A stretch of DNA of 36,480 nt from a virus. Positions 5,009 through 24,400 of the stretch are shown here, one piece after another; the first letter of the stretch is position 1; the number at the start of each line of letters is the position of its first letter. Made by a program: the position numbers and the translations under genes. The notes under the pieces are model-generated. The model did no database searches. It had not been told where the DNA came from and saw nothing but the letters and a program-made list of their open reading frames with translations. The stretch covers positions 1-36,480 of IMG/VR virus record IMGVR_UViG_3300027805_000040. The stretch is one strand, 5' to 3'.

Positions 5009-6025
5009 TTATTTAATCCTCTTGGGTTTTGTTTCGGTCATGCGGGTAGTGCCTTGCTTGGTCTTTGCTTCCAAGCTGGAAGGCGTATACCCACGTTTAT
5101 CCGCCCATGCGCGGAATGTTTTGCCATCTATCTCGCCGCCAAACAAGTCAATAATGTCGTTTATTGACGCACCTGTTGTCTCAGCAGCCTCAGCGATTGC
5201 CTCAGCCGTGAAGTATTCGCTGCCCTTGGTAGTGCTGATCTTCCAGCCAGCAACGTCAACGCCCTGAGCCATCAGGTCTTTGGCTTTGTCTTTCGCGTAG
5301 TCCCACAATTCCTTTTTGAAGATGTTCGCCATCTTCAGGAAGTGTCCAAGTTGTTCGGGGTTGCTTGTGACTTGCTCGCGCAATTGCTCAAGGCTCGTCT
5401 CGACCTTCTCGACAACAGCGAGTGAGTCGGACGTAGGCTTTACGATTGCGGGACAAGTGTTTCGCACCAAGCACCAGCCACAATATTCGCAGGGTGTTGG
5501 CTGTTTGTTTGGATCATTATAGGCCGATATGACAGCAGCGACGATAGCCTTGGCCTCGTCATGCGTGAATTCATGGACGATCTGCGTCTGCGAATCGCAG
5601 AAGAGCAGGATGCACGTCCACTTGTCCACGAAGTATGTCTCCATGTTGCCAAGTGCATACGCTGCCATCTGCTCCATGTAGTTCCTGATCTGTCCCGTCT
5701 TGAGATCCAGTGACATCTGGATCTTTGGGATACGGGCATCCTCAGTGCCTACGTGATCCATGCCGCTCGTCTTGACCTTGAGTTGCTCCTCGTCAACTAT
5801 GACATTGGTATCCACGCAGTAGGCCAGCGTTGTTTCGATAGCCCACTGCACGGCTTGCTTTTCGGCATCCGCGAGTTGATCAAGCAACGCTATATTGCCC
5901 GATATGGCTGCACGGTATGCCGCATCCATGTTGGTTCCGCGCTGTGCCGCTGGAGACGAACCTCCAGACGGCTGATAACAAGCGCAAGCTGCCACTTTGG
6001 GCAGCATTGAGTGACGCAGGCTCAT
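5009..6025 (-). CDS. Cas4/RecB-like (DUF2800-type) PD-(D/E)XK nuclease
   Basis: A 338-aa protein. The N-terminus reads like the DUF2800 opening (SMLPKVAACACYQPS, SPAAQRGTNMDAAY). The putative nuclease core includes TSGMD (D90), SLDLKTG (D107, K109) and a Y-x2-Q-helix NYMEQMAAYALG (115-126). A cysteine cluster C179-x2-C182-x2-C185-x5-C191 could bind an iron-sulfur cluster or zinc as in Cas4/AddB-type nucleases. Paired with the RecT-like annealase immediately upstream (ATGA overlap at 6025-6022), it is the likely 5'-3' exonuclease of a two-component recombination system. The C-terminal part (about 200-320) is helical with a weakly conserved SLEAK tail. Confidence 0.75.
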   Translation of the reverse strand: MSLRHSMLPKVAACACYQPSGGSSPAAQRGTNMDAAYRAAISGNIALLDQLADAEKQAVQWAIETTLAYCVDTNVIVDEEQLKVKTSGMDHVGTEDARIPKIQMSLDLKTGQIRNYMEQMAAYALGNMETYFVDKWTCILLFCDSQTQIVHEFTHDEAKAIVAAVISAYNDPNKQPTPCEYCGWCLVRNTCPAIVKPTSDSLAVVEKVETSLEQLREQVTSNPEQLGHFLKMANIFKKELWDYAKDKAKDLMAQGVDVAGWKISTTKGSEYFTAEAIAEAAETTGASINDIIDLFGGEIDGKTFRAWADKRGYTPSSLEAKTKQGTTRMTETKPKRIK

Positions 6026-6824: not shown

Positions 6825-7136
6825 TTAGTGGTTTAGGTTGAAGAATGCGGGATTGAGTTTCGGAGCGAGTGCCTTGAGAGTCTTGCGGCTCTTGGGGTAA
6901 TACTCATTCGGATACTGCATGATCCAGCGGCTGCTTTTGTCATACTGAATGATGCGGTTCGTGATTGCGAATCGCGTTATATCAGCAGTGTTACGTAGGG
7001 CGAATGTCTTCATCAGGCGCTGACGATGTTTCTCAATCGTCTTCATGCTGATGTTCAGATCATCGGCCATCTCCTTGTTGCTGCGTCCAAGCGCAATCGC
7101 TGCTGCTACTTGGCGCATCCTGTTGGTCATTGTCAT
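6825..7136 (-). CDS. Stand-alone LuxR/GerE-type helix-turn-helix regulator
   Basis: A 103-aa protein whose residues about 5-60 form a LuxR-type HTH: RMRQVAAAIALGRSNKEMADDL, then NISMKTIEKHRQRLMKTF and ALRNTADITRFAI. There is no receiver or autoinducer domain, so it is a bare DNA-binding domain with a short basic/aromatic tail (about 65-103). It heads the replication/recombination operon and stands just after the promoter-rich accessory region, so it could control either. The ATG lies within AATACATCAATG, again without a Shine-Dalgarno sequence. Confidence 0.75.
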   Translation of the reverse strand: MTMTNRMRQVAAAIALGRSNKEMADDLNISMKTIEKHRQRLMKTFALRNTADITRFAITNRIIQYDKSSRWIMQYPNEYYPKSRKTLKALAPKLNPAFFNLNH

Positions 7137-7234: not shown

Positions 7235-7564
7235 CTAGATGGCTCGCAGGCTCTTGCCCTTGCACGTCTGAGCCTTGACCATAGTCGCGAGCACTTCACG
7301 GCAGCGCTCCTCATACTGGTCGAGGAACTCCTTGCGGCAGCGGCCCTTGATCCACCACTTGCCACACTCGTCCGCGAGTTTAAGCGCGAGCTTCTTGGAG
7401 TATGCGCGGTTGGTGACGCCACTGCTTTTCGCGGCACGGGACTTGGTAGTCTTGCCGACAACTTTGACAGCAGGCTTGCTGCTGGTGATCTTACTGCGAC
7501 TGATGGATGCTGAATCTCCGAATGTCATAGTATGTATGGATGTATGGTTGTTGTTGATGCTCAT
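7235..7564 (-). CDS. Basic protein with its own promoter (C-terminal part of the read-through frame)
   Basis: From ATG 7564 (109 aa) or ATG 7528 (97 aa). It lies in the same frame as the cysteine-peptidase candidate but is directly preceded by a sigma70-type promoter at 7580-7608, so it is probably expressed independently. The product is lysine/arginine rich with a central KKLALKLADECGKWW segment and a CRKEFLDQYEERCREVLATM helix near the C-terminus. Residues 7-12 of the longer form come from the CATACATCCATACATAC leader-like repeat found near several starts here. Function unknown. Confidence 0.5.
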   Translation of the reverse strand: MSINNNHTSIHTMTFGDSASISRSKITSSKPAVKVVGKTTKSRAAKSSGVTNRAYSKKLALKLADECGKWWIKGRCRKEFLDQYEERCREVLATMVKAQTCKGKSLRAI

Positions 7565-8008
7565 TGATTGAGCATGGGTAATATAGCCCACCCCCATTTT
7601 GCCGTCAATCTTTTTTTTCGGGGGGGTAGGGGGTTCTACCCGCCAAGCCCTACGGATGATGGAGCCTAGGCGGGGGCGGAGCGGATCGTGGATAACCCCG
7701 TCGAGGACGGCGAAGGCATGGCCCCGTATGGTCACGTAAAAGGCTCCCTGAGGGTTCTGGCGGACGAATCGGCGGAGGCTCCCGCTACGGCACACTTGGG
7801 AGAAGCTGTAGCCCACGTCACGGGCCACTTTCTGGACTACCTGACGGAACGGGACGCCTCGACGGTCTTTGCGCCCTGCAGCCTTCAGCGCGGCATGGCA
7901 GCGCGGGTAGGGCAGGCCCGTCACGGCGGCTAGGGCAATGACCGTGCAGTCACGGCGCTCATTGAACCCCTCTGCCCTGAGGCTCTTGGTGTTCGTGTAT
8001 GTATCCAT
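7235..8008 (-). CDS. Papain-like cysteine-peptidase candidate reading through into a second gene
   Basis: A 257-aa open frame from ATG 8008. Residues 1-115 read ERRDC (Cys21), a helix TVIALAAVTGLPY, then GRKDRRGV, and RGHAFAVLDG with His97 and Asp103/Asp108. A buried Cys at a helix start plus GHAxAVxDGxxxD is typical of papain-like (C39-like) folds seen in many phage hypothetical proteins. After residue about 120 the frame crosses what looks like an intergenic region: a GGGTAG hairpin, an A8 run, a promoter with -35 and -10 boxes, and then the start of a second gene. The two would be separate if one homopolymer (T8 at 7611-7618 or G7 at 7620-7626) had a different length. The frame is open up to 8089 but 8008 is the first start after the hairpin at 8023-8044. 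Confidence 0.5.
   Translation of the reverse strand: MDTYTNTKSLRAEGFNERRDCTVIALAAVTGLPYPRCHAALKAAGRKDRRGVPFRQVVQKVARDVGYSFSQVCRSGSLRRFVRQNPQGAFYVTIRGHAFAVLDGVIHDPLRPRLGSIIRRAWRVEPPTPPKKKIDGKMGVGYITHAQSMSINNNHTSIHTMTFGDSASISRSKITSSKPAVKVVGKTTKSRAAKSSGVTNRAYSKKLALKLADECGKWWIKGRCRKEFLDQYEERCREVLATMVKAQTCKGKSLRAI
7580..7608 (-). promoter_or_regulatory. Sigma70-type promoter with GGG-N8-CCC operator-like repeat
   Basis: On the minus strand, -35 TTGACG (7608-7603), 17-nt spacer, -10 TATATT (7585-7580). The -10 lies inside TGGG-N8-CCCA. The 7564 ATG is 15 nt beyond the -10. An even closer ATG (7575-7573) opens a four-codon ORF whose TGA overlaps the 7564 ATG. This is one of four closely related promoters in the accessory region. 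Confidence 0.75.
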
Positions 8009-8022
8009 GTATGGGATCCCCA

Positions 8023-8044
8023 TGCGGGGGCTTGCGCCCCCGCA
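8023..8044 (-). other. Hairpin with GNRA (GCAA) tetraloop
   Basis: On the minus strand a perfect 9-bp stem TGCGGGGGC/GCCCCCGCA closes a GCAA tetraloop. It lies between the end of the DUF932 gene and the cysteine-peptidase candidate. There is no T-tract after it, so it is more likely an mRNA-stabilising or processing element than a terminator. Confidence 0.65.
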
Positions 8045-8055
8045 CAGGGTGCTGG

Positions 8056-8799
8056 TCAGTTGTTGATGAAGTGCTGCGAGAGATCCCACAGCTTCTGGTT
8101 GAACTGCACGTCTGCAGACGGCGAGGAGATGCGGCGGATGCCGTGATAGCGGCTACCACGCGAGACAGTCTCCTGAACGCGATTGAAGACGCTCCACAGG
8201 TCGTTGCGGCTATCTTCCTCGCGGCGGACAACGCCAAGCGCGTTGAGTTGATCCTCGGACGGCTCGTCCCAACGGAGCTTTGCGGCTTCCATGACGAAGG
8301 TCATCTCGACCAACGGGTGCAGCTTGATGCTACGCATGGCCTTGATGGTTTCCAACATTTCGGGGGAGCGACGAGCAATGGTATCCACGGCTTCATGCGC
8401 GGCCTCTACGTTGCACTGACGATGAATCAGGCGAGTCTGGAATAGTGACGTTCCAGCGATGACTCCGTTGCTGCAGACAAAACGGAAAAACCCAAGCGCA
8501 ACACGCAGCGAGGACTTCCCGTCATGGCTGTTGATGATGACGATCTCAGGCTGACCCTCGTCGCCTGCCATCGGCATGATGTCGTTGTGGCGGAGACGCA
8601 CAACGTGTTTTTGGAACCCGCGAGTCTCGGCGCTATTGGCCCTGCAGACCTCGGTGATGCGCGGAACGAATCCGTGCTGTTCCAAATGACTGATGATGTC
8701 GCGAGTCGATACGAATCCGTATTTGTCGCTTGTTGTCGTAGCAGCGTGACTTGCCTCAAGAGGAGTCAGTGCCGTGTTGTAGTCGAGGTTACTGATCAT
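8056..8799 (-). CDS. DUF932 family phage/plasmid-like protein
   Basis: A 247-aa protein. The segment around residues 88-115, NSHDGKSSLRVALGFFRFVCSNGVIAG, is the DUF932 signature. Family members are widespread on phages and plasmids, often near recombination or anti-restriction genes, and no biochemical function is settled as far as I know. The gene has its own promoter (8847-8875) and a leader of about 40 nt that contains a small GTTCC/GGAAC hairpin and the ACCATACATACAAC stretch right before the ATG. No Shine-Dalgarno sequence. Confidence 0.8.
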   Translation of the reverse strand: MISNLDYNTALTPLEASHAATTTSDKYGFVSTRDIISHLEQHGFVPRITEVCRANSAETRGFQKHVVRLRHNDIMPMAGDEGQPEIVIINSHDGKSSLRVALGFFRFVCSNGVIAGTSLFQTRLIHRQCNVEAAHEAVDTIARRSPEMLETIKAMRSIKLHPLVEMTFVMEAAKLRWDEPSEDQLNALGVVRREEDSRNDLWSVFNRVQETVSRGSRYHGIRRISSPSADVQFNQKLWDLSQHFINN

Positions 8800-8846
8800 G
8801 TTGTATGTATGGTTGGTTGTTAATCGTTCCTTAATGGAACATGGGT

Positions 8847-8875
8847 AGTATTGCCCATGCTCGTTTGCCGCGCAA
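8847..8875 (-). promoter_or_regulatory. Sigma70-type promoter with ATGGG-N8-CCCAT inverted repeat
   Basis: On the minus strand, -35 TTGCGC (8875-8870), 17-nt spacer, -10 AATACT (8852-8847). The inverted repeat at 8841-8858 covers the -10 box, a position where a bound repressor would block RNA polymerase. Upstream are A-runs (A7 and A6). It drives the DUF932 gene. Confidence 0.7.
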
Positions 8876-8914
8876 GGGTTTTTTCAAACTTTTTTTCAGG
8901 CCCATTTTACTCTG

Positions 8915-9187
8915 TTAAATAGCCTTACCAACCCATCTCCAGATATGTCCGATCTGCTGACCATTCTCCATGATGGGTTCGTAAACGTGATTTGGTGTCG
9001 GCGCTTTCGGAACGCGAGGAGGCTTTGGTTCTTTCGGCAAAGGCGTCAGCACAACAGCAGTGCCTTGCATCTCAACAAACATTTCAGTGCCTTCACGCAG
9101 TCGCAATTTTTTACGCAGCTTTGCTGGTATGACAATCTGCCCCTTGGTGCTGAACTTGCAGCGATAAAAGTTTGTCATAGCTTTCAT
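8915..9187 (-). CDS. AbrB/SpoVT-like DNA-binding protein
   Basis: A 90-aa protein. The N-terminus (about residues 11-50) has the swapped-hairpin AbrB pattern: FSTKGQIVIPAKLRKKL, RLREGTEMFVEMQG, TAVVLTPL. The rest is proline rich (KEPKPPRVPKAPTP) with a WRW motif near the end. Such proteins act as transition-state regulators or MazE-type antitoxins, but no toxin is seen next to it. The ATG overlaps the upstream stop (ATGA at 9187-9184). Confidence 0.75.
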   Translation of the reverse strand: MKAMTNFYRCKFSTKGQIVIPAKLRKKLRLREGTEMFVEMQGTAVVLTPLPKEPKPPRVPKAPTPNHVYEPIMENGQQIGHIWRWVGKAI

Positions 9188-9414
9188 GCTAGTTGGCTCA
9201 GATCCATTCCCTCGTAGAGAGTTGATGCTGCAGCCTCCTCAGCATCACGCACCCACCTGTCCAATTCCTGATGGTTGAGACGGCAGACGTAGACACTGCG
9301 TCCACGATGTTCGCCCTTGTCGAGACTGACAAAGTAGAAGTAGCCGTCACCATTGCCGACAACCTCCAAGCCAGTATGCACGATGGCTTTGTTTATGCGC
9401 TTTTTAGTGAGCAT
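9184..9414 (-). CDS. Hypothetical protein, 76 aa
   Basis: Starts at ATG 9414, overlapping the upstream stop by 11 nt; the frame is open further upstream, but that would overlap the neighbour more. Sequence includes GDGYFYFVSLDKGEHRGRSVYVCRL in pieces suggesting three beta strands, then an acidic helix (DRWVRDAEEAAAS). It precedes the AbrB-like gene by a 4-nt overlap. I do not recognise it; a role as a partner of the AbrB-like protein is possible but unsupported. Confidence 0.55.
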   Translation of the reverse strand: MLTKKRINKAIVHTGLEVVGNGDGYFYFVSLDKGEHRGRSVYVCRLNHQELDRWVRDAEEAAASTLYEGMDLSQLA

Positions 9415-9631
9415 TGGGAGCCTCCTTGATGCCAACGCAGCCAATATGCTCTAGCTGCTCGCGGCAGACGTTTTCAAAATAGCCTCGCACGTCTGCCATG
9501 ATGCCGTTTGGCCCCTTGCAGATGATGCCCGTATTTGAGCCAAGTGCTGTCCCGTAGTTCAGCACCCAAGCCTCTGGATTCACGTCGAGCGTGAAGTTGA
9601 TCCTGACTCGGATCGATTTTGGTCTTTTCAT
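9404..9631 (-). CDS. Hypothetical protein, 75 aa
   Basis: Starts at ATG 9631 (MKRPKSIRV), directly after the leader AATCCATACATAT; the upstream extension of the frame crosses a GC-rich hairpin and a neighbouring gene and is rejected. The protein has a basic N-terminus, a beta-like INFTLDVNPEAWVLNYG region and a C-terminal YFENVCREQLEHIGCVGIKEA that contains two cysteines. Function unknown. First gene of a three-gene cluster ending in the AbrB-like gene. Confidence 0.55.
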   Translation of the reverse strand: MKRPKSIRVRINFTLDVNPEAWVLNYGTALGSNTGIICKGPNGIMADVRGYFENVCREQLEHIGCVGIKEAPNAH

Positions 9632-9675
9632 ATATGTATGGATTGGTTTGTGGTGCGCTGTTGGCGCTCCATGCC

Positions 9676-9695
9676 GCCCCCGCCGTAGCGGGGGC
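9676..9695 (-). other. Hairpin with UNCG-type (UACG) tetraloop
   Basis: On the minus strand an 8-bp perfect stem GCCCCCGC/GCGGGGGC closes a UACG loop with a C-G closing pair, the classic extra-stable tetraloop. It lies in the gap between the 191-aa gene and the 75-aa gene. No T-tract follows. Confidence 0.65.
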
Positions 9696-9705
9696 AGGAG
9701 GAACG

Positions 9706-10281
9706 TCACTTCTTGGCCTTGTCCTTCATGCGGCGGGTAGGCCACTGGTTGAAGACTTTGCCCAAGCAGGACACGTTGATGATCTGCTGCGTTCTCCAAT
9801 TCTGGACGCTGCTGTCAGCCATTGTGACCGTCAGGATGCTGTGCTGCCACAGGAAGCCAACAACGCTCGCTGCAACAACGCCAGCGCCAACCTTGGCGGT
9901 CAGCTTGGCAACGTAGGCATCGAAAGACGCACCAGCATCTTTGCGGACTTGCTCGCGCATACGAGCGTAGCGCTCTTCACTGATGCGAACCAATTCGGGA
10001 GCACCGTGCGGACGATATCCGAATTCGTTCTTGTTGGCGCTTTCGGTGATGGACTGAACCTTGGCGCGGAACTTTGTTTTCGTCATGTACGAGCAGCGGC
10101 TGTCGCGCATACCGTTCGGGCGAGGAGCGGCCTTGTTGATATCGTAGCCGTGCTCAACGAGCAGCGGAATGATCGTGTTCTCGACATAGCTGACGTACGC
10201 CTGTTCGGCACGGTCAACGCATTCGGCTTTCTGAGGCGCGATGGCCTCAGCTATCGGGTTGGTATGTATTGATGTATTCAT
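9706..10281 (-). CDS. Hypothetical protein, 191 aa, near-leaderless start
   Basis: Starts at ATG 10281 (MNTSIHTNPIAEA). The body is helical and charged, with a hydrophobic Gly/Ala/Val stretch KVGAGVVAASVVGFLW at about residues 131-146 that could be a membrane segment, and a basic C-terminus. No family is recognised. The ATG is only 8 nt past the -10 box of its promoter, so the transcript would have almost no leader. The first codons are built from the ATACATCAATACATACC repeat seen near other starts. Confidence 0.6.
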   Translation of the reverse strand: MNTSIHTNPIAEAIAPQKAECVDRAEQAYVSYVENTIIPLLVEHGYDINKAAPRPNGMRDSRCSYMTKTKFRAKVQSITESANKNEFGYRPHGAPELVRISEERYARMREQVRKDAGASFDAYVAKLTAKVGAGVVAASVVGFLWQHSILTVTMADSSVQNWRTQQIINVSCLGKVFNQWPTRRMKDKAKK

Positions 10282-10289
10282 CAGGTAGG

Positions 10290-10318
10290 AGTATTGCCCG
10301 TCCTTTGCTTTTGGTCAA
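10290..10318 (-). promoter_or_regulatory. Sigma70-type promoter for near-leaderless gene
   Basis: On the minus strand, -35 TTGACC (10318-10313), 17-nt spacer, -10 AATACT (10295-10290). The flanks GGGC...CTACC (10284-10299) parallel the other three promoters. The ATG at 10281 is expected within about 2 nt of the transcription start. Confidence 0.75.
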
Positions 10319-10333
10319 ATCTTTTTTTGGGGA

Positions 10334-10358
10334 GGGGGCAGGGATTTACCCCACCCCC
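10334..10358. other. G/C-run hairpin in intergenic gap
   Basis: The plus strand shows GGGGG-CA-GGG-ATTTA-CCC-CA-CCCCC, a stem with a symmetric CA/CA internal loop. A TTTT follows on the plus strand, an A7 run on the minus. As all genes are on the minus strand it is not a classical terminator for them; it could stop antisense transcription. Confidence 0.45.
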
Positions 10359-10370
10359 TTTTGAGACTAT

Positions 10371-11297
10371 TTAGTGAGCCAATTCAGCCCAATCTTCGTT
10401 GCTGCAGCCCCAATCCTTGAAGTCCTCGCACCCATCGAATCCTTCGTTGTAGGCCATTGCTTCCTTGGAGGTGAGTCTGGTGATCTCGTCTCCCACGTAG
10501 GACGCGCCGACATAGAAGTGCGGACTCTTGCTGCGTCCATAGTACGCATCGGAGTGTCCACGGTCATACGGACTGCCATGCTCGCGATCCAGACGCTCAG
10601 GAGTGCCGCGATCTGCAACCATCTCGGCATCGTGCTTATCGATGGCGTTAAGGATTGTCGCCTTCGCCGTCTCGAAACCGTCCTCAGGCTCAACTGCTTT
10701 GGTGTATCCTCCGACAGAAACGCGACCTGATGGACTGTCTGAGCACATGAAGTAAACGGTGTGCGCTCCCTTGGTTGCATACCGTCCAGTGTGTTCCTTG
10801 CTGTACGCATAGGAGGGATGAGAGAGGTATTGATCCATCGTCCAGCCGCCCTCTGCACGGATTTGCTCTCCAAGAGCAAAGATCTCTTTTGTTGTCATTG
10901 TCTGAAACGTCTTTTTGACAGGTTCAGCACAGCCTGCGCTTTCGGCGTACAGCGCTTCACGCTTCGCGTTTAACGCTTCCTGCACGTTGATGCGGTCAGC
11001 GGGATAGCGGATCTCGCCTTCGTACTCCAACTGTTGCTTCTCGGACGTTGTCTGGTAGTCAGCGCTGACCTCTTCCCACTGCACGGGAAATTCTTTGAAG
11101 CCAATGCTGTTGCTGCACTTCGCTGCGACGAATGCCACTGCGTCTTGGATGCTTTGCACTCCAGTGATGATGTAGTCATTGCCGCCCTTGAATTTCCAGT
11201 GGGCATTCCCACTGGAGAAACGCCCGTCTTTATCGTGCGCTCCGTAGTTCTCAAGGGTTTGGGTGATGACTAGGTATGTATTGGTGTATGTATTCAT
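10371..11297 (-). CDS. Hypothetical protein, 308 aa, near-leaderless start
   Basis: Starts at ATG 11297 (MNTYTNTYLVI); the open frame continues to 11336, but that part lies across the promoter. The C-terminal third contains RGTPERLDREHGSPYDRGHSD, AYYGR and AYNEGFDG pieces. I recall a similar GSPYDRGxADxYYxR...YNxGY pattern in small phage proteins of unknown function. The N-terminal part has a FSSGNAHWKFKGG segment. The ATG starts 11 nt past the -10 box, so the mRNA leader would be about 4 nt. No Shine-Dalgarno sequence is possible there. Confidence 0.65.
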   Translation of the reverse strand: MNTYTNTYLVITQTLENYGAHDKDGRFSSGNAHWKFKGGNDYIITGVQSIQDAVAFVAAKCSNSIGFKEFPVQWEEVSADYQTTSEKQQLEYEGEIRYPADRINVQEALNAKREALYAESAGCAEPVKKTFQTMTTKEIFALGEQIRAEGGWTMDQYLSHPSYAYSKEHTGRYATKGAHTVYFMCSDSPSGRVSVGGYTKAVEPEDGFETAKATILNAIDKHDAEMVADRGTPERLDREHGSPYDRGHSDAYYGRSKSPHFYVGASYVGDEITRLTSKEAMAYNEGFDGCEDFKDWGCSNEDWAELAH

Positions 11298-11307
11298 AAC
11301 GGGTAGG

Positions 11308-11336
11308 AGTATTACCCATCTCCAATAAGCAGTCAA
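11308..11336 (-). promoter_or_regulatory. Sigma70-type promoter with GGGTA-N7-TACCC repeat
   Basis: On the minus strand, -35 TTGACT (11336-11331), 17-nt spacer, -10 AATACT (11313-11308). The inverted repeat 11301-11317 (GGGTA/TACCC) covers the -10 box. It follows the terminator at 11384-11416 and drives the 308-aa gene. Confidence 0.8.
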
Positions 11337-11383
11337 TAGGAAATTTTAGCCCTATTTTACAGAGTAAAAGTCCGATTTTGGCA

Positions 11384-12006: not shown

Positions 12007-12060
12007 AAATCTATTTATTCGGGTGACGCTACGTCAGCGGCATATGGTTTTGCAAGGAAA

Positions 12061-12134
12061 TAGCGGGGAGAGGATTTGAACCTCTGACCTTCAGGTTATG
12101 GGCCTGACGAGCTACCAGACTGCTCCACCCCGCA
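12061..12134 (-). tRNA. tRNA-Met (CAT), initiator (fMet)-like
   Basis: A 74-nt cloverleaf can be folded: acceptor GCGGGG (2-7) with CCCCGC (66-71), D-stem GAGC/GCTC, anticodon stem TCAGG/CCTGA with loop CCCATAA (anticodon CAT), variable AGGTC, T-stem AGAGG/CCTCT with loop TTCAAAT. It closely follows the sequence of bacterial initiator tRNA(fMet). Position 1 (T) does not pair with 72 (T), and the D-stem has A11-T24, both initiator features. Of the three G-C pairs typical of the initiator anticodon stem, two are present (position 29-41 is A-T). No CCA is encoded. It begins 6 nt after the stop of a 49-aa gene and is probably processed from the same transcript. Confidence 0.85.
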
Positions 12135-12140
12135 AAGTTG

Positions 12141-12291: not shown

Positions 12292-12474
12292 TTAAACCTC
12301 CACACCTACGGCTTCTGATAGTTTATCGATGTTCCCGTTGTCTAGCTCAAAAGCTAGGTTAATGACCTCGGTTTCATCGGTTGTTTTCGGATCGTAGTAG
12401 ATCTCGCCGCCAACATACGGGACTGCCTCCCAACCTTCTGGTTGCTCGTCCCATTCTGAAAGTAGGATGTCCAT
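12292..12474 (-). CDS. Small acidic protein, 60 aa
   Basis: Acidic (many Asp/Glu), with GWEAVPYVGGEIYYDPK as a likely beta hairpin and an acidic helix at the C-terminus. Its ATG overlaps the stop of the giant gene by 1 nt (TAATG), so it is probably translated by reinitiation. Function unknown. Confidence 0.6.
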   Translation of the reverse strand: MDILLSEWDEQPEGWEAVPYVGGEIYYDPKTTDETEVINLAFELDNGNIDKLSEAVGVEV

Positions 12475-15400
12475 TAAGGTATCTTAATAGGGGGGAAAGG
12501 GGTTTTCAACATCGAACCGACAACATCGTTGTCAGTCACAGGCTTGCCTTTCTTGGCGTTCGCAGCAAGTTTTTTGTGCTCCTTTTCATAGTTCGGGAAC
12601 AGCTTCCTGAGATGTGTCGGAGTCTTAATCAGGAAGTTATTGCCGTTGGCAGGCCCAAGCATGACCCAAGGGTAGGAGGGATGGATCTTGAACTTTGGAT
12701 TCTTCAGGAGCGTATCCCGCATCTTCTTCTCCGCTGGACTCATGGAGGCTTCTTGCTTTGCGTCTTTGCCAAAGTATAGGGCGAAAGCCTTGGGATTTGT
12801 GGAAAGCTGGATCACAGCCACAGCTTGGCCTGTGCTGGCATTAATCATGTCTTCAGAGTCCTGAAGCGCCTTTACCAGATTGGGTAGAGTTGGAATGCCA
12901 GAAACAGACTTTGTGGCTTCGCCTCGCGCTGTGAACGAGTACGCCAAGAACTCCTGCAGGAAGTTCTTGTTAGAACCCAACGCCAGAAGTTTCTTAAACC
13001 ACGGCTTATTCTTATGTGCATTGTAGACCTTCAGAGCCTCGGTCTTCGCGGTAGCCAGAAGTTCAGGGGTATCTTTGGCAACGCGATTCTTGATCGGGGT
13101 TAGCGCCTTGTTGAAGGCAATGATTGCATCCTCTTGAGGCGTATTCGCAGGCGCTGGAATCGGATCTTCTCCACGCTCTGCCCGTAGACGGTTTTTCGCC
13201 ATGCGCCTTGTAGCAGCCTTAATCCGTTGCGCCTTGAGATTGCCAATCTCCAAAAGAACGTGAGTCAGGTCGATCACCCAAGGCTCCAGTTTCCCTGCCT
13301 TGTTAAAGGCATCAACCTCTTTGATGTAGTCCGTCCCGAAAGCAATGTTAGAGCGATGGGCATCGTCCGCCATGACTTGGACGAGATGGTAGCCGTCATC
13401 CACATACTGTTTCATCCTATTACGCACGGCATTCACTGGCCCAAGCCCAAGGTTGCCCCAAACAGCCTTATATAAGATGCCATCTGGCCCCATGACCGTC
13501 TCCTGATTGGACTTGAGAAATTCATGCATCGGCCCACCCATATCCTTTCCAAGGGTGTGATGCCTGTCTGCCTGCACCATGCCAACGCGCTTGCCACTAA
13601 TGTCGCTCAGATCTTTGACGATTGGTTCGACAACCCTGTTCGGATCTATTTTGACAAGAATCTCAGTGCCAGTGTCATCGATTAATCCACCATAAAAGAA
13701 TCCGCGCTGAGGCGCTTTCTTCGGCAGCTTAACCTTTCCAGCTTTTGTGATTGTGAAGTCAGCGACAGGAGGATTCTTGCGCTTGGGAAGCATGAGGGGC
13801 ATATCCCCTTCCTCAGGCGGCTCAATTGAGCGTGAGATGAATCCTCCGCCCTCCATTTCGGTCACGTCATTGAACTCAGGATTCAGCAGTTCGCGGATGG
13901 CGGCTTCTTCGTCTTTCCTATACTGCTCCAAGGTCTTGCCCATCGTCCGCATATGCAGCAAGTCCAGCGTCTTGGTATCAATGTCCACCACGTCACCCAA
14001 GACTTCGGCAGCATTGAGCATATCGTTATTCGCTGAATAGCCCGGGTTGTAGCCCTCAGGGAATGTTCCAGCAGGAGGATGCACGGCGGACATCACGTTC
14101 GACATCTCGGTCAGGATCTCATCAATCGGGCGCTGCATCCCGTTCGGGAAGTGCTTCTTTAAGACCATATATGGATCGACCCTGTCGCCAGTGCGCTTGT
14201 CTGTAGCCGTAACTTCAGGAAGAGAAGCCGTCAGGTCAGAAAGCAAATCCATCATGTAAGACATCGCCGTCTTGTTTAGTTCAATAGAATTGGTCAGTTC
14301 TTCGGCTCGTTCTTTGGCGTCAGCGATTGGAATCTCTCCACGGTTCAGGCGCTCCAAAAAGCCCTTATATTGGCGCTGGAGCATGAATGGCTCAAAGTCA
14401 TTCAGAATCCTGCGAGCGATGGTTGTCAGATGGAATGACCTGTCCAGCCTGCCTAGATCAGCCATAACAAGCCCTGTGAGAGGCGTATTGACCAAGTCCA
14501 TGCCATCGGCCTCAAATCGGTCTTTGCGCCGTAGAACGTCATCCTCGGCCAAATTAGGATCTCTCTCGTAGCGTTGCGGCATGAAGCCAGCATCGGCCTG
14601 TGGATTCTCCCCATCAGAAATCCTGTCAATGGAATCGACCCATTCTATCCACTGCTGCTCCCCGTAGCGGCTTTTCATCAGGCTGACAATTGCCTCCTTA
14701 TTGATGCCCCATTCGATGGCTTGCTCGCCATTGGCGAACTTGATCAGCCAACGGGTATTCAAAGCATCGTCCAGCAGCTTGCCACTAGAGGCCAGCGTCC
14801 TGTTGAAGTCAGGCGTTCTAGCTTCTTCGCGCATCTCCTGCTCAGCAATCTGGTCTTCCAGCGAGGGGATAAGCGCCTCAAATCCATTGATACGGAGCGT
14901 GTTCTCCCAAGCCCCTGCCTTATATCGCGGCCTATCCGTTCCAATAATTGGCGAATCCAACTGCTCAAAGCGCTCCATCGGAAGACCGTTCTGCTTAAAC
15001 ATATTTTGCAGTTCGGCTTGAGCCTGCTCAAAGGTCTTGAGCGGAGGCGGAACAAGCAGCTTGGAGTCTTCGGACGTGTCGCCCTCAAAGTATAACTCAG
15101 GAGAGAATGCGCCGTTACCGTCAGGGCCGGGGACAACACGGATACGGGCAATCCAGCTTCCCTTTTTCTTATCCAGTTCGCCATCGAACCGCACATAGGT
15201 AGAAGGCTCGCGTTGCGGCATGAATTGCGGCTGACCTTCCGCTTCGACACGGGAAATTAATTCGGACGGAACGTCTACCTTCCAGATAGGAACAACGCCT
15301 TCAATAACGCGCTTGCTAAAGTCTAAAGCCTCAGCAGCCGTATTAAATTTCGGACTGATAGGCTTCACTTCTTCAGAAGTGCTAACCCAATAATTTTTGC

Positions 15401-18400
15401 CATCGCTTCGGACTTTCACGTTTGCGCCCTGTTGACCATATTCAGGGATTGTAAGGAATGTATCGGCCACTTTAGCCCCATAGGGCTTCATGTATTTCCC
15501 AATGTCTGAAGGCTGAACCATATCGTAGTAGCCCTTCATTCCCTCTCCGCCGATTGTCATGTCTGCTTCGGCAATTGACTGCCTGCTTGGGCCAGAACTG
15601 CTGATAATTTGTTCGGCCATTTTCTTGCCGATAATTTCGCTTAGCTTGACCTGAGCGGGGCGCTTGCCTTCTTTTGCCTCTTGCTCGACTTCCGCTAGAA
15701 CGTCTTTGATTCGTCCACGGGCATCTATAACAACGCCATCACGTTTTCTTACTCTAGCGAATCCAATTTCGCCCGGCGTCTGTAATACTTCTACGTCCTC
15801 TCCATCAAATGATCGGTCATAAATCGGATCGTTCTTATAGAAAGAGACGAGCATATTTGGATTTTCAGGGCCAGCCTCATCAGCATAGCCAATGCTATCA
15901 ATAATCTGACGCATCATGTCTTGATAGCGCTCAACCTGAGTTACCCCCTTAGTCCACCCAATCCACTCAACATTTCCAACTGGCTTGCTCGGAATGGCAT
16001 TGAACGCATTTATTGCTTCGTCACTTGTTGCTCCATAAGCCTGCAAATACCGTTCGTGTTTTCTGACGGCATCATCAAATGCGCCACGGCTTACCGCTTC
16101 ATCAGCCGAAACAGCCTTTTCTAAAAGCCTTTTATAAAGCTGAAGACCCCAATCGCGCTTGAACGGCATATCAGCAATGCCCATAAAGTCTCCATCTTCT
16201 GCTTCTTGCTTTAGGGTTGCATCGTCAATCAAGGTTTTAGCCATTTCCCCCAAGGTTAATTGGCTTCCAGTAAGGGGATCGGTGACTTCTGTGGAATCGT
16301 TGAGAAGTTTTGTAACAGCCTTTTTCAAAGCAGATGCTTCCATGCCGTCCGCCTGCATTCGTAAATCGTGATACGGGGCAGAAGAATCCATTAATGGGTT
16401 GGACTCTAAGTCACGCTGAACCTCTTGAATGGTTTCCTTAGCAGCCTCCCTGCTTTGCTTGGCAAGAAGCGCCACATATATATTTTCGATTCTCCAGCGG
16501 TTCAGAACATCCAATTGCTTTAATGGATCCTCTTCCCTCCATCCGTAGTCGCGGCCTTTTTGCGCCCTGTCGGATTGGAACTCTTCGATCATTATTCCCA
16601 AGCGCCCGTTTTCATCTAAACGGTATTTATATCTGACATGACCCAAGTAGCCGGGGGCATTCTTATAATGGCTAGAACGAAACTCTCTAATTGGCTTTCC
16701 TTCGCGATTTGGACGAGGAGCCATTGTTAAAACCATCTCATAATATCCGTCTCCGCCCTCAAGCGTGTAGGTTTTATAACGATCTCCTCCATCAACGCTA
16801 ATAAGTGTCGGGCGATTGGCGACGATGTTTTCCAGCAGACGTTCTTTGTTGACCTTGCCATCGTTCTGAGCGGCGAGATTATTGATGATCCTGACGGCAT
16901 CGGTAAACAAGACCTCGTCTTCCCTGACCTTGTTGGGTGAATTCCAAGAAACGCGAACATTTACGCCTTCCGCCGCACGGGATCTGGCTGCAGCTTCTGC
17001 AACTGCTTTTTGATCTGCAGGAACCCTAGCGACAACCATTGTTTTCTTCTTTCCGTCAACTTCCGTTTCTTCGGTGACGATATATTCTCCAAGCATTGCC
17101 AGAGCCTGCTGTGCTGTGACTGCCTTGCCCTGAATCTTGTTCTCCAGTACGCGCCCAAGCTGACTATAAAAGCCTTTTTCGCTTGTGGGTTGCTTCAGTT
17201 CCCTACGGGGCATGAAAACTGGAAGGCTGTTTGTATTTACAGCGTCTGCAAGCGCTGGAGTTATCGGGAAAATCCAACCGTTGTCGGCATCAAGGTAATC
17301 AAACTTCTCTTGTTTCTGTGCTTCGCCAACTGCCTTTTCAAGACTTGTATATTCTTCTACGGCCCTGTCGGGAGCGGTTGGATCAACAGGATCTTTAAGA
17401 TCCTTCATTCCAAGATATACTGGATCACTTAATCCTTGGTCGTTTGGTTTCGGAACTTGGAATGGGAATACCTTGCTGCCGTATTTTTTCAGGAACTTAT
17501 TGACCTCATTGACAGCAATTGTGTCGTAGTACGGCTTGAACTTCGCTCCACCAAAAAACGCAGATCCGCGCTTCGGCTGAATTGTTTGCATCCCCTCTTG
17601 AGCCTTAGAGATAACCTCATTCGCCAAATCCTTGGGCAAAATTGTGCTTAGTGACTTTCCTTTGAAGTCAAACTTCGACATACCGGGAGAGTTTTCATTG
17701 TAAATGATCTCCTTGGTTTTCGGATCAACAGTAACAAATGTGTAAACGCCGCTAGATGTGTACAGAAAAACTTCCACCTGATCTCCGTTCAGGACAGATC
17801 GATACTGTACCTTTTCTAAAGGAGCCATGTCTCGCCAGCGTTTTGCTTGAGTCTCTCCGCCTGACCAGTAGACGTATTTATGTCCGCTTTTGACTGCGTC
17901 TACTATCTGGTTTTTGATCAATGCCATGCCCCACTCGCGGCTTTGGCTGAATGGCGCTTCTGGAGGAGCCTCAGCGTTTTGTACAATCGGATCACCCGCT
18001 TGAATCCGTAGCTTCATTTGCGGGACAGGTTGTTGGCTGGCATCAATAACTCCGCCCTTCATTGGCAACCTGATGCCCTTTTCTCTTGCTTGTCTGATTT
18101 TCCAGACGTTTTGCAAGGTTGAATTCTGCCCAAATTGTTCTAAATACTCGTCCAAGTATTGCTCGGCATCTTCTTGCCGATCAAAATCTTTCTTCAGAAC
18201 AATGTCTGGCCCGTTGTCAAAATTAGCGATGACCTCATATGATGTGTCATATTTGCGATAGCCAATTGGATTTCCTTGCCCATCTTTTTTGCGAGCGGCT
18301 TGGTTTCTGTCACTTTGCATCTCATGGATGTGGCTGATAGGAACCAAATGACTTGTGCCTGTTCCGCCATATGCTCGCATCGGAACATCTGGAGACTGAA

Positions 18401-21400
18401 AATTCCAATTATAGTATGCTGTATAAAAGTCTGCTTCCTGAGGAGTTATGACTCCATTTTTTACAGCAGTTCCAATAACATACAGAGGAATTCCCGTTTT
18501 GGCATCCCACTCGGCAAACGCAGGATCGCTTTTGTATGATTTTTTTAGTTCCGATTCGATTTGTGGAAGCGTCCGCAATGTTGGATCAATGATCATTCGA
18601 TCACCAACGCGCATATGCGCGATATAATACGGATAGTTCTCGTAATGAGTTTCGCGAAACTCAAGACCCTCGGCGCGTCCACGGTTGCTAATTTGAAAAT
18701 CTAGATCGCCCTCTTTAGAAAGGCTTTTCGCGACCCTTTCGGCTTCTGCCCTAGTCTCATAAATTCCCTGAGGCGGCTGAATGTTGGGATAGACTCCCCG
18801 TCCAGCGGCAAAATCAATCTCATACTTGCCAGCGCCATACCCTGAATCTTTCGGTCTTTTGCGGACTTTATATTTTACAACTTCTAAGTTCGGACGAACC
18901 TGAAGGACTTTTTCGCGGTAGTTTGTGTCTCCAAGAATGCGATATCCAGACTCTGCGTATTTGGTATACGTCTTGTCTCCATAGCCAGCCATTCCGGCAG
19001 GCCAGAATCTGCGAATTCCAAGTTCCCCAATGCGATAGGTTCGATTTATCGGATCTTTAATATATCCGTTGATTCTCCAATAGGTAGCAGACTTTCTTTC
19101 TTCGGCTGTAATCTGATTGTCTATGTCGGCAAGGTTGGATTCTGCCTCGTCAAAAGCTGAATCACGCTCTGCAACAGCTTTATCAAGCGCTCGCATTGCC
19201 TTCGGAGTTGCCAAATCTTTGTCTGCAGATCTCTCTAGTTCAGCAGTTATTTCCTCGCGCTTCCTCAAATATTCGGTGTCAAGGCGCTCCCATTCTCTGT
19301 TAGAAAGCACATCACGCTTGTCGGACAATGTTTGCGCTCTTTCATCTGACGCCTCTGCCGTTAAGCGTGACCATCTTTCCGCTTCGTCTGCTCCAAACTC
19401 ATCAAGCGCTTCAAGCGTTTTTAGAAGAGCATAGCGCTCAAGGCTCCACCCTTGTTTTTCAAGTTCTGCAGTGACCTCTTCTTTGATCACGCTGCTAGGT
19501 ATGCGCTTCCTTGCTTTTCTAAGCGCACCAATCGCCTCATTTTCACTATAATATGCTGGAGAACTTACTACGTTTTGCGGAGGAACCCAAATTTTTCCGC
19601 CTTCATCATAGATGCTATACGTTCCTGTATCAGGATTCTGTTTAACGGTGTAATTTCCAACAAGTGCAGGAACTCTTTTGCGAGCCTCGTTATCCAAATC
19701 AATATATTTTCCAAACAAATCTTCTAATTTTGTCAAAAGCCTTTTCCCGCTTGGGGCCATGTTCTTCCACGAAAGCGCCCTGTTAACAGACTCCTGCCCA
19801 CCAAGTATGCTAAGCATGAACTTGATGTTGTTCTGACGGAGATACTCCATCAGGTCTGCCTTATTTACGTTCTTTCCGCCCTTGCTCAGCGTATCAATGG
19901 CCTCATTGATACCGCTCCACTGAACCTCAGCAGGCTTAACCCCGTTCTGAGGGTTGTTCACAATGGCCCGAATTTGCTCAGGAGTCGCGGAAGCGCCCTG
20001 AATCTTCTGATCAACTACGTCCTCAAGCTGGCTCTTAAAGCCGGGATAAACTCGCTCGTCAATCGTCAGTTCGCGCCTTGGGCGCATCGGCATGAACGCT
20101 GCAGCCTCTCGGAGATCGCGCAATTCTTGCAGTTCGTTTGCGTAGTCTTGTCCATAGGCTTCGGAAAATTGATCTCCTAGCGCCTTCTCTTCCTCTTCAA
20201 GCACCCTCAGGCGCTCGCGCTGTTCTCCAGACATCCTGAATCCCTGTTCTTCAACTGTTTCAGGTTGACGAATGCCGCCTTCACGCTGTGGCATGAAGTT
20301 GGCTTTCGCCAGACCATAGGCAACTGGCATTTTGGGAAGAGATGTCGGCGCAATCTGTGCAATATGGTCTATTCGGACGGACATAATCGTCCGATCCATA
20401 TTGAGATCCCTCGGATCGCCTTTCTTGCGGGGAACTTTTGTTCTGTCGGGATTCGCGCCCTCGGTAGCCGTGTCAAAAAGGTTCAGGAAGTCGTTGAAGA
20501 CGTTGCGCTTCATTGCGGCTACCTGAGGATCGGCATCCAGCAACCGCGCATTCGGGCCTGCAACCTGACCAGATTCGGTGTATCCACTGCCGGGCAATCC
20601 CTGCTGCCAGTTATAGAGATACTTGCCCGTGAATTCGTTCCAAAATTGCTCCTTACTGCCCTTCCAAGGCATTAGACGCGCAGGCATTCTGTCGCCCCAT
20701 GCATGGAGCTTATCAAACATTCGTCCAGCCGATATTGCCGTGAAAAGAAAGTTTCCTGCCTTGGACATCATCAAGCCAATCGGAACCAAATCGTAGTATT
20801 TAGGCGAGAAAGCCTCATACTCGCCCTTCTCATTCATCATCGCTGCGTAGTTGACGAGAAACCGCGAGCCATCATTGCGAACCAACGCATCGTTAATATT
20901 CAGAATGACATCTTTGATGCTCTTCGGAAGAAGCGTTTCGGGAAGGCTTTTGATGGCCTCAACCTGAAGAGGACTTAGCGTTCCCCGCATCGTCTCTCCG
21001 CCTTCTTTGGTAGGATCAAAGCGGTTCGGAGCACCGTAGTCAGGAGTGTCCAAGGCTTCTTGGATCAGCTTATTGCGCTGTTTCAGAATGCGCTTGGCTT
21101 CTTTTGGCTGATGGAATCGGGGGGTAACTCCGTCTGGCTGCATGGCAACCTGTCTCGCCACAACAATCTTGCTGCCGACAGGAACTCCCTGAAGATTAAT
21201 CTCCGCTGAGATTGGCCCGTAGCCGTTGCTCTGTTGAACTCCGCTTTCAGTAACGTCCCAAGAACCCTCATAAACAAGCGGCCCTGAAAGGGCTTGCGGA
21301 GCGCCAATGGCAGTTCCATCAGGCCCGATAATCTGAGCCTGCACTTCAGTGACGGGCAACGGGCTATACGTTCCGAAAGCCTCAAGCAACGCCTTGTTCT

Positions 21401-24400
21401 TGACCAGTTCTGAACGAGTAATTCTAGGAGCTTGCTTGCCCTTAACGGCGGGACTGATTTGACCCTGCAAGTCGATCATGGCTTCAAGCGCCTCCCTAGC
21501 AAGCAACTGAACCTCTGGAGTGAACCGCGCTCCGCTGTTGTCTGAAATAATGTCCTGAGAGTCTGGAATATTTAGAAGCTGTTTCATTTGAGACAGCTTC
21601 TTAGAAAGCATTTCAAACTTGTTCCTCTTGAATGCCAGCATTGCCTTGTCAAAAATCGCTTGAATAGCGGGAGTTGGCGCTTTGCCAAATACACGGCTCA
21701 TGCTGTCGGCAGCTAGATCAGCCGTGATTTCTTCGCGTAGCTTTGCCGCTGCCTCTTTCTGATTAACAAGGATTTGGCCTGTTGCGGGATCTCTTAGGAC
21801 TTCATTTGTAACTGGATCGCGCTGAGCAACAGCCGTAAGGAAAAATTCAGGATTAACAGCCGTTCCTGCGTATTTATTCACATAGAGATCTGCAAGTTCA
21901 GCTTCTGTAAGCCCTTCTCCAACCTCAGCTACAACCTGACCATCAGCATTTCGGATCTCCTCCTTGAAAAGAATGCGATATGGCTCAGCCATCAACTGCT
22001 GATATTCGGGAATTTTGCTGAGATGGTGACCAGCCTCATGCCGCAAAGCGGTCAGTGGATCTTGCCCGTTGTTAATCCGCCTAATAACGGCATCGGTATT
22101 GATGACCATCGTTGGCTTGGCATCGTCCATGACGATCTTTGGCCCACGGAACTTGGGAATGCCGCCATACATGACGGTATCGTCTATTGTCCCATCGTAA
22201 AATCCGTCCTGCTCAGCATATGTATTCAGGACATCTTCGCTTTCATTCGGATACTTGGCGCGGAGATGGTCTTTGATCTGCTGTGTGCTTAGAATGCGAA
22301 TGCCAACATTGTTTTGTCCACGGACAAATCCGCCGTTTGCAAGGCTATTAATGCCTGCCAGATCTAGGAGATATTGCCGTCCGAATTCATTGCGAGTTTG
22401 GACGTTTGCGCGTTTCATCCGATCTAGCGCACGTTGATTATTCGCAAGATTTTTACCCGTTGCCGCGATTAGGTCAGGATTATTAGTGGCAACAGCCGCC
22501 TGATTTAGCTGAGCAGCCTGATCAAGCCTCTGTTGTTGGTTTTTCAGGACAACATTCCAATCTGTCATGGCGTCCACGTTGCCACGATCAACGGGATTTA
22601 GATCTTGGTATGCTTTCCAAGCATCAACGTCTTCTTTCCGCCTGCGTCTTGCATCGTAAACAGGATCATCCATCCCGAATACTTTGTTCATTGCACGGGT
22701 TTGCGTCCGTCCCAAGCTAGACCAAAGAAGTCCCTGACCAAGCATGGCAGACATCTCTTCGGCATCCTGTGAATCAGCAATTCCAACTGCCAAGCCAACC
22801 AAAGTTGGTTCTACACCCGCTCGGATATATTCCCTTGTGTTGTCAATAATGCTGTCGAGGCGTTTGCCACCAGATGCAGTGAGCCTGTCGCTTAATCCGC
22901 CCTTTATAGACGTTACTCGGATCGGCTCGCCTCCCTCGGCGCGAGGCGCTCCCTTGCCTGCCTGACGGTCACGGCGGAGTTTGGACATCGTCTCAAAGGT
23001 TCCCGCCTGACCTCCTGCAGAAATGCGCTTGGCCTCATAGTAGTTTCGGATGAACTCAGGAGTAGACTTCAGCATCCGCGCTCCAATTAGCCCCCCAATG
23101 ACGCCAAGAGGAGAGTCAGGCTCTAGCCCGTATCCAATTCCAGCACCAGCAACATAGGGTGAAACTTGACGAATTTTCTTAAAGAAATTGCTTCGGTCAA
23201 TGGCCTCTTGCGCCCGTTTAAGCGACTCATCTACTGCGACTGCAGCTTTTTCTCTTCCAGTAACGCGCTGCGTCTTTTCAAAGTTCGCCTGCTGTTTGGA
23301 GCGTAGCTTTGCGGCATCTTCTGCAAGAAGTTTGTTAACCTCATCAGGGGTTTTTCCACGGAAACGCAAATAATTGGTAACCTTTGGGGTAGCATACGAA
23401 CCCAACTTCAAAAGGTTCATGCCATATCCGACAGCATCTAGACCGAATCCTTCAGGCAAAAGGATTTCGCCAGCGGTCATAATATCTTGATCCAATTCAG
23501 GAATTAGCTTTTTAGCTTCTGCAATGCTTTCCAATCCGCCAATGGTCATCGCCTCAAGATCATCTTGACGTGCAGAAATTGCTTGTTCGCGGGTAAAGTT
23601 GTATTCCCGCATATAGTCCTCAACTGTACCAATACTGGATGTTGCAACTGCATTAACTGCTGGTGCAATGAAGTCCAAATACCTGTGATATGCAGTAGGA
23701 TTGAGCGACTCAAACTCGTATGCCGCACCTTCAAAGTTCTTCCGCGCCTTCCATCGCTCAAAACTGGTATCGTAGCTGTTTAAGCCAACGCTTTCGCTAA
23801 GCAAATCCCATCCCTCAATGCCGCCAGCGCCCATTTTTTGGCCTAGTTTGGCAAGTTGATATGGGAGATCTACGGCAGGAGAAACAAATGCCATAGGCGC
23901 TGCTTTAGTCTTTTCAATGACGTTCTGCTGCGTTGCCAGAATCTGCTCGCGCTGCTCAGGAGTGTATTCCTCCATCACCAAATCAAGATACTCTTTGCCA
24001 GTGAACTCTATGCCTCCGCCCGTGTATCCAGTTTGTGGATAATACTCACCAATTCTCTCAGTTACTCGTTCACGGGCGCGAGGAGGAAGCTGCTCATGCA
24101 ATTGCCATGCGAGATTGTAGTCTTTTCCAGTGATTTCTCCTAAAGCGACATCTCTAATCCCTTTAGCCGCCCCTTTCGCAACCCCTGCCAACGTCTCGCC
24201 AAAGGCAACCGTCATATCAATAGGGAATTTCGCAACTGCTCCGCCAAGGTTCATCCATTGCTCGGAGTTTTTCGGTATGCGCCAAGCGCTATTTGAGCGA
24301 ATATAGTCGTAAACCTCGCGCTCCTGCTTCGCATTCAGCGGAATGTCTGGTCTGATTTTGACGGCTTCAGCCAAATCTTCGATGCTCAAAGAATCGCGGA

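Follow-up and report, generated by a model that had tools for sequence, protein, structure and literature searches.

Conserved tandem promoters with an 18-bp dyad and predicted 5'-terminal hairpins in a group of uncultured phages, and a GerE-type protein as candidate early repressor

The DNA analysed here, called the window throughout, is a 36.5 kb fragment of an uncultured bacterial virus (36,480 nucleotides; IMG/VR record IMGVR_UViG_3300027805_000040) that carries four related promoter-like elements, S1 to S4, on its minus strand. These elements are conserved among related phages, and two of them, together with promoters of the same kind elsewhere, contain an 18-bp dyad, ATGGG-N8-CCCAT, which is best read from its sequence behaviour as a putative operator, an element separate from the promoter. 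We propose that they are early promoters read by the host's sigma-70-type RNA polymerase and then repressed by a small LuxR/GerE-type helix-turn-helix (HTH) protein of the phage, a reading that we hold and doubt in roughly equal measure. Relatives were retrieved by a DUF932-protein search of IMG/VR, which returned five contigs (G001-G005), four of them 61-63 kb long; most window genes tested recur in relatives.

7580..7608, minus strand: S1 promoter, class A, TTGACG-17-TATATT; conserved in G002-G005
8847..8875, minus strand: S2 promoter, class A, TTGCGC-17-AATACT; conserved in G002-G005
10290..10318, minus strand: S3 promoter, class B, TTGACC-17-AATACT, with the imperfect repeat GGGCA-N7-TACCT; conserved in G002 and G003
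11308..11336, minus strand: S4 promoter, class B, TTGACT-17-AATACT; conserved in G005 (at 35728)
7574..7591, no strand: S1 putative operator GTGGGCTATATTACCCAT
8841..8858, no strand: S2 putative operator ATGGGCAATACTACCCAT (ATGGG-N8-CCCAT); the G005 version, ATGGGCAATACTGCCCAT, forms 8 of 9 pairs
11299..11319, no strand: S4 dyad ATGGGTA-N7-TACCCGT (GGG-N11-CCC), overlapping the -10 box and the predicted start

The original prediction had placed four minus-strand promoters at these coordinates, and all four were found there. The 17-nt spacing that it described is borne out when counted from the six-base -35 hexamer; taken literally, the pattern TTGAC-N17-WATAYT gives zero matches, since the spacer counts from the hexamer. 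The inverted repeats held up in part, GGG-N8-CCC being exact in S1 and S2 and GGGTA-N7-TACCC exact in S4, while S3 has only a weak form. For the motif GGGYWATAYT the window has five matches where 0.34 would be expected, a count reached in none of 100 shuffles, and four of the five are S1-S4. The fifth (6895, plus strand) was discarded: it lies inside the gerE coding region and lacks a matching right arm. All four elements fit the sigma-70-type consensus (TTGACA-like -35, 16-18 bp spacer, TATAAT-like -10), with 10 of 12 hexamer positions matched in S1 and 9 of 12 in S3 and S4; S2 has a weaker -35, TTGCGC. Four relatives have the sites at corresponding positions, so chance does not explain them; S4 is present in G002-G004 as a class B motif, and S1-S3 are also carried by a fifth, partial contig. 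They are not the unlinked single-gene units first envisaged, as they stand head to tail on one strand in a tandem array, and the only convincing minus-strand terminator from 12600 down to 6500 lies upstream of S4.

Across the window and the four relatives, 22 promoters were aligned, all with a TTGAC-type -35, a 17 bp spacer and an AT-rich -10, usually preceded by an A-tract. Thirteen belong to class A/C (S1, S2 and 11 more) and nine to class B (S3, S4 and 7 more). Class A comprises the S1 and S2 families, and class C is a third family (G002 46321, G003 33962, G004 1452); G004, the most distant relative, has several further such promoters. The 18-bp dyad is a property of class A/C. Its exact form, ATGGG-N8-CCCAT, occurs eight times in 283 kb of sequence, each time at one of these promoters, and the controls gave no copies with swapped arms at N8 and 0-3 copies at other spacings.

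The position of the dyad is what separates it from the promoter. In class A it covers the -10 box (centre -9.5; mean 6.4 of 9 pairs), and in class C it lies in the -35/-10 spacer, exactly 9 bp further upstream (centre -18.5), where the outer pairs form 5 of 5 in all three sites; for a random 18-mer the chance of forming all five outer pairs is P = 0.0012. Class C also differs in its -10 and discriminator sequences, and the discriminators GATCAC and GGCAAC contain no CCC. Moreover, the inner dyad pair switches from C-G in class A to G-C in class C. The dyad is thus conserved and separable from the promoter hexamers, and because it shifts relative to the -10 box it is best read as an operator rather than as a by-product of promoter composition. 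The most symmetric of these putative operators are in G005. This supports the earlier idea of a shared dyad overlapping the promoters. It does not support one operator for all four sites: S1 and S2 have N8, S3 and S4 have N11, and the class B layout (GGG-N11-CC) shows good symmetry only in S4 and G004 60739, being weak elsewhere and poorly conserved in relatives.

A second conserved element lies at the predicted 5' end of the class A/C transcripts, with +1 placed 6 bp after the -10 box (7573 for S1, 8840 for S2).

7559..7573, minus strand: S1 predicted +1 and 5'-terminal hairpin, GCTCA-ATCAA-TGAGC
8826..8840, minus strand: S2 predicted +1 and 5'-terminal hairpin, GTTCC-ATTAA-GGAAC

In 13 of 13 class A/C sites a 4-5 bp hairpin has its first paired base at the predicted +1, against 1-14% per shuffled sequence for a 4-bp stem at that place; this is an indirect sign of a start about 7 bp after the -10 box, as expected of sigma-70-type promoters. 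The stem is kept by compensatory changes: three of the five pairs vary on both sides, G-U pairs included, and 90.9% of cells are paired, against 23-40% in slid alignments, with 0 of 500 shuffles reaching the covariation score. Reading the +1 hairpin as a DNA operator instead is disfavoured by the G-U pairs and by a loop length varying from 4 to 7 nt. Past the hairpin, the class A/C leader is unstructured and A/C-rich, contains the repeated ATACATAC and has no Shine-Dalgarno motif.

Class B promoters have a different predicted 5' end. In eight of nine sites an ATG follows the predicted +1 by 2-4 nt, so that from these predicted starts the mRNAs would be near-leaderless; the predicted +1 is at about 10283 for S3 and about 11301 for S4. 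Enrichment of Shine-Dalgarno-like motifs across these genomes is only modest (21-27% versus about 15%), which fits a system of near-leaderless or Shine-Dalgarno-free mRNAs. The tRNA-Met gene at window 12060-12135, which is also kept by all four larger relatives, has initiator-like features in the alignment (1-72 mismatch, A11:U24); it may be relevant if early mRNAs are leaderless.

As candidate regulators the original prediction had offered two proteins of the window, a LuxR-type HTH and an AbrB-like protein, of which only the first occurs in all six contigs.

6825..7136, minus strand: standalone LuxR/GerE-type HTH, 103 aa, candidate regulator and first gene of the recombination/replication operon
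8915..9187, minus strand: MazE/AbrB-like protein, between S3 and S2; rejected as general regulator

The HTH protein matches PF00196 at 9.7e-13 (48 bits, cut-off 23.5), exceeds this cut-off in 6 of 6 contigs and has a conserved recognition-helix region. Its AlphaFold model matches the DNA-binding domains of LiaR, NarL, GerE and TraR at about 1.1-1.7 Angstrom. Pfam scans of 59 and 50 proteins of G002 and G004, with the very long protein and small open reading frames (ORFs) excluded, recognised the GerE-type HTH as the only transcription factor. LuxR-type TraR binds 18-bp inverted repeats (PMC3907764) and ComA binds a 16-bp inverted repeat (PMC4797271); the size of the dyad therefore suits the GerE-type family. 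Taken together, co-occurrence and family knowledge make the GerE-type protein the likeliest candidate reader of the dyad.

These elements suggest a circuit in which S1-S4 would act as tandem early promoters for the host's housekeeping (sigma-70-type) RNA polymerase, firing at once on infection. Flanked by the structural module on one side and the recombination/replication operon on the other, the array would serve accessory and takeover genes. Between S1 and the GerE-type gene immediately downstream of it no terminator was recognised, which would make the GerE-type protein an early product. A dimer bound to the dyad inside the core promoter would block polymerase, and the protein would thereby shut off the class A/C promoters, its own source S1 included, and end the early phase. 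The hairpin at +1 probably protects the 5' end of class A/C transcripts, and in class B transcripts (S3, S4) the AUG is predicted to follow the 5' end by 2-4 nt. We favour repression over activation because the operator would occupy -27 to -1 of promoters that already look strong.

Several points weigh against this proposal. The sites in relatives are largely orthologous, so that independent support comes down to about three families of promoters. GerE-type proteins frequently act as activators from sites upstream of the -35 box rather than within the core promoter. The Pfam scans left aside the proteins named above, and the majority of the phage proteins that were scanned have no Pfam family, so that a further regulator could be among them. 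Finally, the weak and differently spaced symmetry of class B makes a single regulator for all four sites doubtful.

One rival reading is that a host regulator, or else a phage protein that went unrecognised, binds the same operators in place of the GerE-type protein, in which case promoter activity would follow host physiology or a different switch of the phage. We consider this unlikely on balance, with the best chance among the alternatives. Many phage proteins of the region match no family, the dyads of class B and of the G004 promoters have other sequences, and several promoters are preceded by an AT-rich dyad, so that more than one regulator is likely. Against it stand the presence of the GerE gene in every contig, a site size suited to the GerE family and the lack of any other recognised transcription factor in G002 or G004.

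Less probable again is a reading without any regulator, in which GGG and CCC would belong to the core promoter itself, as an extended -10-like element and a GC-rich discriminator, and duplicated promoter-leader cassettes would have spread. GGG does stand immediately before the -10 box in nearly all class A/B sites, and promoter, hairpin and A/C-rich leader recur jointly before unrelated genes; comparable mobile promoter cassettes, the PeSLs, exist in T4-like phages (cited in PMC4503421). This reading accounts poorly for class C, where the dyad lies 9 bp upstream with a discriminator that lacks CCC and is thus not tied to the -10 box, and for the inner pair that is C-G in A and G-C in C.

That the AbrB/MazE-like protein is the shared regulator is very improbable: AbrB-fold proteins bind promoters and this one is encoded between S3 and S2, but G004 and G005 have no PF04014 match and keep the operators, the most symmetric one included.

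The proposed circuit resembles known systems in part. Lambda PR/OR-type control pairs strong sigma-70-type promoters with an operator within -35 to +1. The phage array likewise has sigma-70-type early promoters with an overlapping putative operator, but no Cro/CI-type protein was recognised here, and there would be one operator per promoter over several tandem promoters. Stem-loops of the ompA type at the 5' terminus stabilise mRNA; the predicted phage transcripts likewise open with a hairpin and continue unpaired, although the phage hairpin is very small (4-5 bp). PeSLs (cited in PMC4503421) share with the present sites a repeated early-promoter cassette before swapped accessory genes. Going by the title of Comeau's 2014 paper as cited there, they pair an early promoter with a terminator-like stem-loop. 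Here, by contrast, the predicted hairpin is at the transcript 5' end and a putative operator is added. A parallel for the protein is the tra box with TraR, together with other LuxR/GerE-type regulators that have inverted-repeat sites; shared are an 18-bp inverted repeat and a tetrahelical HTH (PF00196). The phage HTH, in contrast, is a standalone 103-aa protein without a receiver or autoinducer domain, and the phage sites are inside the core promoter, whereas the distance from a tra box to the start downstream of it is about 45 or 65 nt (PMC3907764). A literature search with the terms tried found no paper giving the tra-box sequence or a GerE consensus, and none on an early repressor of LuxR type in a phage.

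The result is a concrete and testable proposal for an early-gene control circuit, with promoters, putative operator, candidate repressor and 5'-end types, for a phage group for which no close cultured relative was found. If correct, it would mean that a quorum-sensing-type DNA-binding domain alone acts as a phage early-gene repressor and that early phage mRNAs are built for Shine-Dalgarno-independent initiation. The operator and hairpin rules could be used for finding early genes in related contigs. In its most complete form, the proposal is that these phages, possibly infecting Verrucomicrobiota, use a tiny GerE-type early repressor on a tra-box-like 18-bp operator at two promoter positions and make mRNAs with two 5'-end types (a +1 hairpin with a Shine-Dalgarno-free A/C leader, or a near-leaderless AUG), with the initiator-like phage tRNA supporting this mode of translation. 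This composite is tentative, and more probably wrong in some part than right throughout.

The genes behind the promoters are the following.

10371..11297, minus strand: gene behind S4, 308 aa, without Pfam or PHROG match; ATG about 4 nt after the predicted start
9706..10281, minus strand: gene behind S3, 191 aa, phrog_4687, function unknown; ATG about 2 nt after the predicted start
8056..8799, minus strand: DUF932 gene behind S2
7235..7528, minus strand: 97-aa gene behind S1 (MTFGDS...), also the C-terminal part of the open frame 7235-8008

Unrelated genes of the region (window 7500-11300) start alike (MNTYTNTYL, MNTSIHTNP, MDTYTNTKS), because the ATACATAC leader repeat runs on into the coding start; it looks as if promoter-leader cassettes were swapped. 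S1 itself lies inside the continuous frame 7235-8008, which links a phrog_3754-like gene to the 97-aa gene. This frame is open in four genomes and changes length only in-frame; both flanks show a third-position excess that the 36-codon linker lacks. A fused gene with an internal promoter, yielding a long and a short product, is a possibility.

Dyads of other kinds were also observed. Three G004 promoters (57611, 849 and about 59800) carry perfect spacer dyads of differing sequence (CCCAACC-G-GGTTGGG, CCCAAGC-A-GCTTGGG and CCTACC-AA-GGTAGG), with the symmetry kept and the letters changed. From the lack of a recognised virion RNA polymerase and from loops of 7-8 nt we infer that N4-type hairpin promoters can be rejected. 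An AT-rich dyad recurs upstream of several promoters; two window copies are listed here.

11357..11367, no strand: AT-rich dyad TTACTCTGTAA, 31 bp upstream of the S4 -35
8907..8917, no strand: AT-rich dyad TAACAGAGTAA, 42 bp upstream of the S2 -35

In one or the other of these forms it lies 20, 31 or 42 bp upstream of the -35 box at eight promoters; a ninth copy (G004 59763) is off phase and a tenth lies within a gene. The 11-bp steps suggest a helically phased upstream site.

Two pattern scans of 2.9 million viral contigs hit only contigs of this group: class B pattern matches fell only in the same five contigs and class A matches only in four of the five. Three more contigs found via RecT (L048-L050) have RecT in common and lack the promoters. 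Searches with tail and structural proteins found no cultured relative, and a tail-protein scan of bacterial genomes found no prophage. The exonuclease (5009-6025) has cultured-phage matches only in two Akkermansia phages and four genome matches, all in Verrucomicrobiota; at 33-39% identity, these matches make Verrucomicrobiota as host group only a lead. Finally, about one third of the window is taken up by a single open frame (12474-24887; 4137 aa), whose N-terminal 1000 aa share 86-87% identity with G002 and G003 and only 37-39% with G004 and G005.

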